DNA of 64,000 nucleotides, from assembly GCF_900112175.1 (NCBI RefSeq), contig NZ_FOYT01000001.1, positions 930,001 to 994,000 of the forward strand. Direction: 5' to 3'. Positions 36,600 through 39,751 of the stretch are shown piece after piece. The notes below the pieces were generated by a model. The model saw only the letters and a list, made by a program, of their open reading frames with translations. It searched no databases and was not told the origin of the DNA. Source of the DNA: Halogeometricum rufum. Lineage in GTDB: Archaea > Halobacteriota > Halobacteria > Halobacteriales > Haloferacaceae. The position numbers and the translations under genes were made by a program. Each line of letters opens with the position of its first letter. Within the stretch, counting starts at the first letter, position 1.

Positions 36600-36767
36600 C
36601 CTCCCTCGGTCGAGGAGGAACGACGCCAGTTCCTCGCGGGAGGCTTCCGGGCGGTCCTGCATCACCCAGTGGGTCGCCCCGTCGAGTCCGCGCACCTCGC
36701 CGCCGTCGTCTGCGAGTCGGTCGGCGTACGAGACCGGTTGGAGTTCGTCGGCGGCGCACCTCGCACT
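36600..36767 (-). pseudogene. Remnant of an alpha/beta-hydrolase C-terminus
   Basis: Reading the minus strand from 36767, one frame gives ELQPVSYADRLADDGGEVRG followed by LDGATHWVMQDRPEASREEL and ASFLLDRGR, the typical end of an alpha/beta hydrolase including the catalytic His (ATHW). There is no start codon, no upstream hydrolase body and no stop after the family's normal end; the frame runs on into aroA' antisense. The rest of the gene is gone, replaced by the DICT gene's promoter region. Confidence 0.65.
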
Positions 36768-36860
36768 CGACGCCGGCGCGGTCGTACTCGTGTTCGAGAC
36801 CGTTCGACGGAACCGGCAGTATCAGTCACTTACTTACGATTTCTCGCACAAATTACTGTC

Positions 36861-37616
36861 GTGAGACTACAGCAGTTCGTCGAATCGGCCGACGAGCGAG
36901 CCCTCTCGCTCGTCGTGGTGAATCGGGAGTCGCCGAGGCCGATTCAGACCATGCTCGAAGGGTTGTTCGACGGCCAACCCGTCGAAGTGGACGAGCGACG
37001 ACTCCCCGACGGGGACGACGACGCGGTCCTCCTCGTCGACGACGGCGAAATCGTTGCCTCCTCGCCGCTGGCGGCGTTACAGGAGTCGATTCTCCTCGTG
37101 AACTCCGATCTGTACATCACCGGCACTCGCGCCGCCACCGACGTCGAGATTCCGGACGTCGTCGCGGCCATGGAGAACGTGCGGTTCACGTTGCGGGGGT
37201 ACCCCGAGTCGAACAAGGAGAAGCTACTGCTCATCACGATTTCGCGGTACATCGAGCGGTTGGCGCTGGAGAGCGACGGCGGCACGCACCGCGCGTCGTT
37301 CCAGCGACTCTCCCGCATCGACGACGAACTCGGAACGCGCCGGGTGTACGAACGACTGGCGGCGTCGGCGGTTGACACGCACGTCTACGGCGTCCCCGAC
37401 TGGACGCCGCCGCCGGACTTCGAGGTCACGATGCACGGTGGATGGACGCCGACGTTCCGCGACTCGTGGTTCGTCACCTTCGCCTCGGAGTCCACGGACG
37501 GTCCGCACGCGGCACTCGTCGCGTTGGAAACCGAACCGCGCGTCTGGGACGGGTTCTGGACGTTCGATTCGGGAGACACGCGGCGTATCTCGCGGTACAT
37601 CGAACGGAGACTGTGA
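36861..37616 (+). CDS. DICT sensory-domain protein
   Basis: 251 aa from GTG 36861; a TTACTTACG TATA-like tract about 30 bases upstream suggests a leaderless start, and the in-frame codons further 5' run through the hydrolase remnant. The C-terminal half (FQRLSRIDDELGTRRVYERL and VYGVPDWTPPP, then GFWTFDSGDTRRISRYIE) resembles the DICT domain associated with two-component and cyclic-nucleotide systems and with haloarchaeal stand-alone sensors. The N-terminal half has a hydrophobic-acidic sandwich. No DNA-binding or kinase domain is attached. Ligand unknown. Confidence 0.75.
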   Translation: MRLQQFVESADERALSLVVVNRESPRPIQTMLEGLFDGQPVEVDERRLPDGDDDAVLLVDDGEIVASSPLAALQESILLVNSDLYITGTRAATDVEIPDVVAAMENVRFTLRGYPESNKEKLLLITISRYIERLALESDGGTHRASFQRLSRIDDELGTRRVYERLAASAVDTHVYGVPDWTPPPDFEVTMHGGWTPTFRDSWFVTFASESTDGPHAALVALETEPRVWDGFWTFDSGDTRRISRYIERRL

Positions 37617-37806
37617 CGCACCGCCGCTTCGACCGGAACGCACTTCGATATAGCGCGATGCGATACATGCAATCTCGACAGAACTTCTCTACAGAGAGTA
37701 TTCTCCCGCGAGGAGACTGAACGGCGTGTCGTCGCGAAGCGGTCCGACCGCGTGGCCCGATGCGAGAGCGCGGCACGGCGTCGACCGCCGTCCGCCGCCT
37801 CGGAAG

Positions 37807-38175
37807 CTACGAATCCCGTTCCAGCGCCTCCCGGCGGTTCTCGTACTCCTCCTCGGTCAGGTCGCCGCGCGCGTACGCGAGACGGAGTTCTTCGAGGGCG
37901 GCGTCGCCGCCGTTCGACGACCCCGCGACGGCACGATAGACGAGGTAGCCGACGCCGGCGAGGACGGCCAGGAACAGCAGTTGCACGCCGACGCCGACGA
38001 GGGGCATCCACGCCGGGCCGCCGCCGCCCCACGTTCCGCCCCACATACCTCCGCGCATCATCGACCCGTACCCCATCATCCCGAACCCCATGAACAGGGC
38101 CGGAAGCAGGACGAGTGCGCCGAGTGCGACGAGGGCGAGCGCGACGAGCCGTCGGTCTGTCGTATTCGTGGACAT
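37807..38175 (-). CDS. Membrane protein with Gly/Met-rich segment and SHOCT tail
   Basis: 122 aa from ATG 38175. TM1 (about 9-30) runs into a Gly/Met/Trp-rich stretch (about 31-56; FMGFGMMGYGSMMRGG), TM2 (about 59-84), then the SHOCT motif ALEELRLAYARGDLTEEEYE (about 96-115). Met-rich loops between membrane segments are common in copper or silver binders, so a metal-related role is possible but not shown. The promoter region has a perfect palindrome, suggesting tight repression. Confidence 0.72.
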   Translation of the reverse strand: MSTNTTDRRLVALALVALGALVLLPALFMGFGMMGYGSMMRGGMWGGTWGGGGPAWMPLVGVGVQLLFLAVLAGVGYLVYRAVAGSSNGGDAALEELRLAYARGDLTEEEYENRREALERDS

Positions 38176-38193
38176 GATGATCACCTGAACCCC

Positions 38194-38214
38194 GGTGAGA
38201 CCGGGGGTCTCACC
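38194..38214 (-). promoter_or_regulatory. Perfect operator-like palindrome upstream of the SHOCT gene
   Basis: GGTGAGACC (38194-38202), GGG, GGTCTCACC (38206-38214): 9-bp arms, 3-base spacer. It lies between a GTAGTAC TATA-like tract (about 38217-38223) and the ATG at 38175 on the minus strand, over the predicted transcription start. Confidence 0.6.
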
Positions 38215-38566
38215 TAGTACTACACCGTCCCGATTCAATGCAGTTGCCGTTACGTACCCACAGCGAGCGGTGGCCGTGAGCTTCGAATCCAAAGCCACAC
38301 GCGTTGATTCGTTCGCACGCACGGAGTCGCGTCCGACACGAAAATGCCGTCGGCGACGAGAGCAGTCTGTGGTCCCCCGGTCGTCCTCACCGACGAAAAC
38401 ACCGTTTCGGCCGGTTCTCCGTCGGGTCTGCGCTCCTTGCCGAAACCGGTCGGAAATAGTGAATAAACCCGCTGTCGCGATATAGAATCGTCCGTGCGGC
38501 CCTCGCGCCACGGCAAACCTCGGGAGAGTCGCCACGCTTTAACCCCGCCCCCGACTCTCTCCGACG
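38215..38566. other. Gene-poor spacer between SHOCT and aroB' genes
   Basis: About 350 bases without a convincing gene; overlapping short ORFs are compositional. It contains the SHOCT promoter at one end and a CTTTAA TATA-like element about 30 bases before aroB' ATG 38567 at the other. AT-richer than its surroundings (for example AATAGTGAATAAACC near 38455). I see no RNA gene or mobile-element end. Confidence 0.5.
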
Positions 38567-39751
38567 ATGACACGGAGCGTCTGGCTGAAGGCCGACGACA
38601 GCGTCGGCGACTGGGAGGCGCGGAAGCGACGGATAACCGCCGGTCTCGAATCGGGCGTCGATTGGGTGCTCGTGGACGAGTCGGACGTCGAACGCGTGCG
38701 GTCGTTGGGCGACGTGAACGTGGCCGCCTTCAGGACGGACGCAGACGCGAGCCTCATCGACGACGTGGAAGAGGCGGAGGGCGGCGACGACGGGGCCGTC
38801 GCCGACGCCTACGTCGTCGGGAAGAACGGCGAGGGCGACGGCACCGTCGACCTGCCGGGCGACTTCTCCGGGTCCGCGGACATGACGACGCTCCGACGCG
38901 AGGACGACCGGGCCAACGCGGCGTACGTCCGCATCCTCTCGAAGGACCACGAGACGTTCGCCGAGGCGGCCGCACAGGACGCCGACTACACCATCGTCGT
39001 CGGCGAGGACTGGACCATCATCCCCCTCGAGAACCTCATCGCGCGCATCGGCGAGGAGACGGACCTCATCGCCGGCGTCACCACCGCCGAGGAGGCGCGG
39101 ACGGCGTTCGAGACGCTCGAACTCGGCGCGGACGGCGTCCTCCTCGACAGCGACGACCCCGACGAGATTCGCAAGACCGTCGAGGTCCGCGAGGCGGCCG
39201 AACGCGAGTCGCTCGACCTCCAGTGGGCCGAGGTGACGGCCGTCGAACGCACGGGGATGGCCGACCGCGTCTGCGTCGACACGGGCAACCTGATGGAACA
39301 CGACGAGGGAATGCTCGTCGGGAGCATGGGCCGCGGCCTGTTCTTCGTCCACGCGGAGACGGCCGAGTCGCCGTACGTCGCCTCCCGGCCGTTCCGGGTC
39401 AACGCCGGCGCCGTCCACGCCTACGTCCGGACGCCCGAGGGTGGCACGAAGTACCTCTCGGAACTGAAGAGCGGTGACGAGGTGCAGGTCGTCGACACCG
39501 AGGGTCGGACCCGCGAGGCCATCGTCGGCCGCGTGAAGATAGAGAAGCGACCGATGTTCCGCGTCGAGGCCGAGGTGGAGGACGACCGCGTCGAGACGTT
39601 GCTCCAGAACGCCGAGACCATCAAGGTGCAGACGCGCGAGGGCCGGACGGCGGTGACGGACCTCGAACCCGGCGACGAGATTCTGCTCTACTACGAGGAC
39701 ACCGCGCGCCACTTCGGCGAGGCGGTCGAAGAGAGCATCATCGAGAAGTAG
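38567..39751 (+). CDS. aroB': 3-dehydroquinate synthase II (archaeal type)
   Basis: 394 aa. Oxidative deamination and cyclisation of ADTH to 3-dehydroquinate, NAD-dependent; replaces bacterial AroB in archaea. Recognisable family segments include VWLKADDSVGDWEARKR at the N-terminus, GEDWTIIPLENLIA, RVCVDTGNLMEHDEGMLVGS (two parts), VASRPFRVNAGAVHAYV and KYLSELKSGDEV. The usual partner aroA' lies 2 kb upstream, separated by a hydrolase remnant, a DICT gene and a SHOCT gene. A CTTTAAC TATA box 28 bases upstream indicates a leaderless transcript. Confidence 0.95.
   Translation: MTRSVWLKADDSVGDWEARKRRITAGLESGVDWVLVDESDVERVRSLGDVNVAAFRTDADASLIDDVEEAEGGDDGAVADAYVVGKNGEGDGTVDLPGDFSGSADMTTLRREDDRANAAYVRILSKDHETFAEAAAQDADYTIVVGEDWTIIPLENLIARIGEETDLIAGVTTAEEARTAFETLELGADGVLLDSDDPDEIRKTVEVREAAERESLDLQWAEVTAVERTGMADRVCVDTGNLMEHDEGMLVGSMGRGLFFVHAETAESPYVASRPFRVNAGAVHAYVRTPEGGTKYLSELKSGDEVQVVDTEGRTREAIVGRVKIEKRPMFRVEAEVEDDRVETLLQNAETIKVQTREGRTAVTDLEPGDEILLYYEDTARHFGEAVEESIIEK

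Follow-up and report, generated by a model that had tools for sequence, protein, structure and literature searches.

A perfect inverted repeat downstream of a copper-type promoter in Halogeometricum rufum: a candidate mRNA leader hairpin of a SHOCT-like gene

Results

Gene content and homologs

The window analyzed here is a stretch of 64,000 nucleotides of the Halogeometricum rufum genome (contig NZ_FOYT01000001.1, positions 930,001 to 994,000), and all coordinates are given within it (Table 1). The gene of interest encodes a 122-aa protein that contains two transmembrane segments (recognized by eye), a segment rich in Met, Gly, and Trp, and a C-terminal SHOCT-like domain. Its score against the Pfam SHOCT family (PF09851) is 26.2 bits, just below the curated cutoff of 27, so that the assignment is borderline. 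With H. rufum itself counted, relatives of this protein are found in 76 of 99 genomes at an E value of 0.001 and in 212 of 392 genomes of the order at an E value of 1e-20; two more searches of the same 392 genomes with ortholog proteins returned mostly the places found previously. A contig scan yielded nine loci, including two that are bacterial and nonorthologous, and a tblastn search of named plasmids gave no match. Neither of its neighbors in the window, the genes for 3-dehydroquinate synthase II and a DICT-domain protein, is a copper gene. Among the orthologs, L029 and L137 are as similar to the query as L030 is, with different upstream DNA, and of these three loci L030 alone has the promoter described below, which suggests a rearrangement beside the SHOCT gene.

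Table 1. Features of the SHOCT-like locus, in window coordinates
Feature	Position	Strand	Remarks
DICT-domain protein gene	36669-37616		Window neighbor
122-aa membrane protein gene	37807-38175	-	ORF and start codon (ATG 38175) set by homologs
Predicted 5' leader, ~35 nt	38176-38212	-	Start inferred near 38210-38212 from the start codons of copA and the genes for 92- to 99-aa proteins
SD-like AGGTGATC	38179-38186	-	Outside H1 and H2
H2, competing stem CCCCGGT-GAG-ACCGGGG (plus-strand letters)	38190-38206	.	7-bp arms, loop 3
H1, reported perfect inverted repeat	38194-38214	.	9-bp arms, loop 3
-10-like TGTA	38221-38224	-	Part of core promoter
Core promoter AACTGCATTGAAT-N8-TGTA	38221-38245	-	Sole copy in the genome at 0 mismatches
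TATA-like ATTGAA	38234-38239	-	Part of core promoter
Proximal dyad box TGTGGGTACGTA	38251-38262	-	8/12 to consensus, anchor -22
Distal dyad box TTTGGATTCGAA	38282-38293	-	12/12 to consensus, anchor -53, 31 bp from proximal box
3-Dehydroquinate synthase II gene	38567-39751	divergent	Window neighbor

Promoter elements and candidate regulator

Across 141 loci, including this one, the conserved part is a promoter of the form AAC-n-GCATTGAAY-N8-CGTA, or a variant of it, which most of them have upstream of the start codon. The first base of its TATA-like element is used below as the anchor. The spacing between the two halves of this core is identical in all 70 loci selected by the pattern GCATTGAA-N8to12-GTA, and the same spacing of 8 was called in 115 of the 141 loci by a position-weight matrix, which was trained on those 70 and allowed spacings from 3 to 10. 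Removal of four weak members (L062, L064, L143, and L144) from the 115 left 111 loci in 36 clusters; some of the loci represent one record from two collections (e.g., L013/L058 and L061/L114). In the H. rufum genome, the core pattern is found at 18 places with up to 3 mismatches, versus 7 for a control. The next-best copy, with 2 mismatches, is located before copA, and a copy with 3 mismatches precedes the gene for a 92-aa membrane protein. A search of 60 genomes (H. rufum included) revealed the mismatch-free core at 20 places in 15 genomes, versus 3 for the control; judged by position, 13 are before SHOCT relatives, 2 before copA, 2 before the gene for a 99-aa protein, and 3 with no clear relative. 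The 92-aa membrane protein (G000:C3:53555; L161 and L186), which carries a variant of the core promoter, has no Pfam match; a P-type ATPase whose N terminus is rich in His is encoded ~1 kb downstream of it. ORFs similar to halocyanin and copper nitrite reductase were noticed by eye near copA (L185:11641-14320; G000:C4, downstream of copA).

Upstream of the core, a 12-nt dyad, TTTsGATTCGAA, peaks at anchor positions -53 and -22, which are 31 bp, or approximately three helical turns, apart. These are the highest (z = 4.8) and the second-highest (z = 3.9) dyad peaks, respectively, in the 36 SHOCT clusters, and -53 is also the top peak in 22 copA promoters (z = 5.1). Boxes scoring at least 8 are found at -53 in 17 and at -22 in 12 of the 36 clusters; the corresponding counts for copA are 12 of 22 at -53, likewise 12 of 22 at -54, and 1 of 22 at -22. 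With a score of at least 9, boxes are present in 24 of 36 clusters, versus 2 of 36 on the reversed sequence. The copA profile covers 22 of 30 loci, with the omission of L199, of five loci that had no start codon call at +29 to +33, and of L202 and L203, whose letters there are identical to those of L201. The core and the distal box are common to copA and the SHOCT genes; the proximal box is weak in copA. In H. rufum, the sequence TTTNGATTCGAA occurs in 3 copies (control, 0), of which the other two have no recognizable copy of the core promoter behind them, and copA has the box variant TTTCGAATCGAA.

The genome also encodes an Lrp protein with a TRASH domain of the HVO_1752 type (G000:C2:1058632; domains HTH_AsnC and TRASH_HVO_1752_C, the latter at 86 bits versus a cutoff of 27). 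This protein might be the regulator that acts at the dyad boxes, and the layout of boxes and core resembles that of the CopR/VNG1179C-type Lrp-TRASH copper regulators. Metal-type transcriptional control of the SHOCT gene from these upstream boxes appears highly probable.

Transcription start and leader

Of 30 copA loci, 25 have their start codon between +29 and +33 relative to the anchor, and in the genes for the 92- to 99-aa membrane proteins it is at +29. According to a survey of Haloferax volcanii, 72% of its protein-coding transcripts are leaderless (PMC4983044). If copA is leaderless, transcription would start near +28 to +30, corresponding to positions 38212 to 38210, within the 5' arm of the repeat. 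This calibration agrees with the first-pass annotation, which had placed the repeat over the predicted transcription start. In the listed SHOCT loci, the start codon is located at +40 to +71, which means that these genes carry a leader. Moreover, the copA start codon occupies the very place where the SHOCT genes have their repeat, so that their leader is an extra one, mostly of 25 to 40 nt. Close to its 3' end, the predicted leader of the window locus contains AGGTGATC, which we take to be a Shine-Dalgarno (SD)-like motif.

The inverted repeat and a competing stem

The perfect repeat with 9-bp arms, GGTGAGACC-GGG-GGTCTCACC, on which the first-pass annotation was centered, lies exactly at 38194 to 38214, spanning anchor +26 to +46 on the minus strand; as RNA, this stem (H1) has a predicted energy of -16.3 kcal/mol. 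Perfect repeats with 9-bp arms and loops of 3 to 8 nt are found in the GC-rich window in 19 arm/loop registrations at 14 places. Dinucleotide shuffles of the window (n = 20) contain 10.3 such repeats on average (range, 5 to 18), so that the real count is about twice the mean and the top shuffle falls one short of it. A 9-bp-arm repeat also arises in 48 of 3,000 shuffles of the 391-nt intergenic region. Because such repeats are common in the window and are found in shuffled intergenic sequence, this one, taken alone, is a mild surprise. Compared to shuffles of its own leader, the 9-bp stem has a p value of 0.007, and the fold energy of the window leader alone gives p values of 0.06 to 0.11.

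A motif scan of the 4.19-Mb genome returned this site as the sole copy of the repeat at fewer than 3 mismatches; at 3 mismatches, there are 3 further places, versus 2 for a reversed-pattern control. The stem of the window locus was not found in any close relative among the ortholog loci compared, and Rfam gave zero matches up to an E value of 1 in the region from 37600 to 38600. The repeat was also considered as an intrinsic terminator (a stem followed by a run of T residues); the single call in the region from 38100 to 38600 falls elsewhere, at 38347 to 38359.

A second stem, H2, overlaps H1 in such a way that the two are mutually exclusive. Its RNA energy is -12.9 kcal/mol, and the predicted fold depends on the start position, with H1 formed for a start at anchor +26 and H2 for a start at +28 to +32.

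Leader hairpins in orthologous loci

Leader hairpins with unrelated stems are found by eye at the position of the repeat in about ten ortholog lineages. In addition to GGTGAGACC/GGTCTCACC of the window, the stems include GTCGCGT/ACGCGAC, GACGGA/TCCGTC, CCGTGGA/TCCACGG, CTGGGAG/CTCCCAG, GTGGGC/GCCCAC, and TGTTGTG/CACAACA, as well as GGAAGC/GCTTCC and GTATTGT/ACAATAC, which were nonsignificant in the energy test. The stem alignments made by eye include three loci with the promoter called at another spacing (L035, L111, and L130). In the ortholog clusters with the most members (35 and 23 loci), leader folds are weak and hairpins are almost absent. When folding energy was scanned along the promoter region in a single representative of each cluster, the strongest signal was at anchor +27: 14 of the 36 clusters had -7 kcal/mol or lower there, compared with 12 at +31, 8 at +23, and 0 to 7 at other positions. 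The mean fold at -109 (-4.9) is near the mean at the peak (-5.7).

Leaders of at least 20 nt were available for 34 of the 36 clusters, and the merging of six related ones resulted in 29 groups; in any group with more than 6 loci, folding was limited to 6 chosen at random. Compared to dinucleotide shuffles, the leaders of these 29 groups yield Fisher p values of 7e-4 (from +26) and 5e-4 (from +29), with 7 and 6 groups, respectively, at a p value of 0.05. The figure for the merged groups is the one relied on here; before merging, the Fisher p value over 34 clusters was 1.5e-5. Against random segments of the same length from the same loci, 4 of the 29 groups stand out at the 5% level, and GC-rich segments nearby often fold too. 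Overall, the statistical support for a putative recurrent leader hairpin is moderate.

Two stem families were inspected for covariation. In family A, with 11 sequences, both partners have changed at 2 pairs, a count reached by 27 of 500 shuffles, and the covariation score is at 7 of 500; with 10 sequences, there were 3 such pairs (8 of 500), and it was the addition of a single sequence that led to the former values. Family B, with 12 sequences, has 2 pairs changed on both sides (143 of 500), 5 cells (1 of 500), and a covariation score at 1 of 500. Alignment A2 omits L083, which has the same letters there as L072, and L096, which is one base shorter. A change on both sides of a pair is the covariation measure least inflated by relatedness, and by this measure the covariation is weak. 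As the shuffle controls leave relatedness in, the covariation in these families is no more than suggestive. By our count, stem positions with G-U pairs outnumber those with A-C mismatches, 9 to 5; this is the direction expected for selection at the RNA level, with too few independent events for proof, and is not decisive.

Discussion

Taken as a whole, the explanation that we prefer, to which we give an even chance, combines control by a copper-type activator with a working hairpin in the mRNA leader. The SHOCT-like gene would be a member of a copper/silver-type regulon, with transcription switched by a CopR/VNG1179C-like Lrp-TRASH activator on two helically phased dyad boxes, which are positioned directly upstream of the core promoter with rigid spacing. 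The repeat is found just downstream, at and after the predicted transcription start and inside a short 5' leader that is absent from copA. It would form a 5'-terminal hairpin in the mRNA, leaving the SD-like element that follows it unpaired, and might set the efficiency of translation or the stability of the message.

The first-pass annotation had proposed a metal- or stress-sensing repressor bound at the repeat. Its metal-type control is retained here on account of the core shared with copA and the upstream dyad boxes, whereas a role of the repeat itself as an operator is not supported. A perfect, long dyad over the predicted start does occupy the classic position of a repressor, and a dimeric protein bound there could block transcription until released by metal or stress. 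However, this dyad has no second copy in the genome at fewer than 3 mismatches, and its sequence is not common to the orthologs, part of which have hairpins of other sequences at the same place. Further, copA has the same core and distal box and, in most loci, a start codon where the operator would be, and the known copper regulator of the Lrp-TRASH type is reported to activate copA (PMC3551603, PMC3600143, and PMC7830388). An operator is therefore quite improbable, and we favor the view that the repeat is an mRNA leader hairpin tuning translation or stability.

A somewhat unlikely, but more serious, alternative is that the palindrome arose by chance in a leader rich in GC and is neutral, regulation being left entirely to the upstream boxes. 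The abundance of 9-bp-arm repeats in the window and their appearance in intergenic shuffles fit this explanation, as do the weak leader folds of the largest ortholog clusters, the frequent folding of nearby GC-rich segments, and the weak covariation. It is at odds with the position of the folding peak at the predicted start, the combined shuffle p value of ~5e-4, and the presence of some compensatory changes in both of the stem families inspected. Alternatively, the leader might exist in two states, with H1 or H2 selected by the choice of start site or by the binding of metal or protein. Both stems fold well and exclude each other, and the predicted fold changes with the start position; however, the overlap of H1 and H2 is known from the window locus, and no link to translation is evident, as the SD-like element lies outside both stems. 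Such a switch is very improbable. A broader version of the leader hairpin explanation would be that, in a copper regulon whose other members are leaderless, haloarchaea have repeatedly equipped the leadered SHOCT gene with a sequence-independent hairpin at the 5' end of its mRNA, as a posttranscriptional brake or stabilizer for a metal-induced membrane protein, and that the two exclusive stems of the window locus make it a switch dependent on the start site or a ligand. This proposal is, in our opinion, unlikely.

These observations spell out how the promoters of a probable copper regulon of haloarchaea are built, with dyad boxes separated by 31 bp and a core of rigid spacing. This grammar predicts new regulon members and might be of use as an inducible-promoter tool. 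They also make the role of 5' leaders testable in a mostly leaderless group, in one small gene beside co-regulated, apparently leaderless genes. Among the open-license papers listed by literature searches, no title or opening abstract describes the dyad boxes or the leader hairpin.

In haloarchaea, leaders of the hp transcript of Haloferax volcanii and of gvp have been reported to keep expression below that of leaderless versions (PMC2636863, PMC6550001, and PMC4390858). The hp leader, like the one described here, contains a predicted stem-loop (-7.4 kcal/mol); stabilization of a leader stem-loop of H. volcanii reportedly abolished translation, and its destabilization raised it (PMC2636863). 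Unlike the hp and gvp leaders, the hairpin predicted here belongs to a gene with a copper-type promoter and recurs in several lineages with unrelated stems. As for the protein, a SHOCT membrane protein of Haloferax alexandrinus, Hfx-2019-SC1-cds84, is reported to be induced at 0.25 mM silver, as are copA and an lrp gene (PMC10694973). The similarity lies in the protein class and the copper/silver setting and does not imply orthology.

The closest parallels to the promoter are the VNG1179C/yvgX copper regulon of Halobacterium, in which VNG1179C is reported to be needed for the copper induction of yvgX (PMC3551603), and CopR of Pyrococcus. These systems share with the present one a copA target and an Lrp-TRASH protein encoded in the genome. 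CopR is described as binding to a palindrome that immediately precedes the BRE, with additional footprints about one helical turn apart, an arrangement similar to that of the boxes predicted here, and as activating copA and repressing its own gene in vitro (PMC7830388). In contrast to the TTNNCAWWWTGNNAA of those systems, the predicted sites in the SHOCT and copA promoters have the form TTTsGATTCGAA, and the SHOCT target and the leader hairpin are features of the present locus that are absent from the parts of those accounts considered here.
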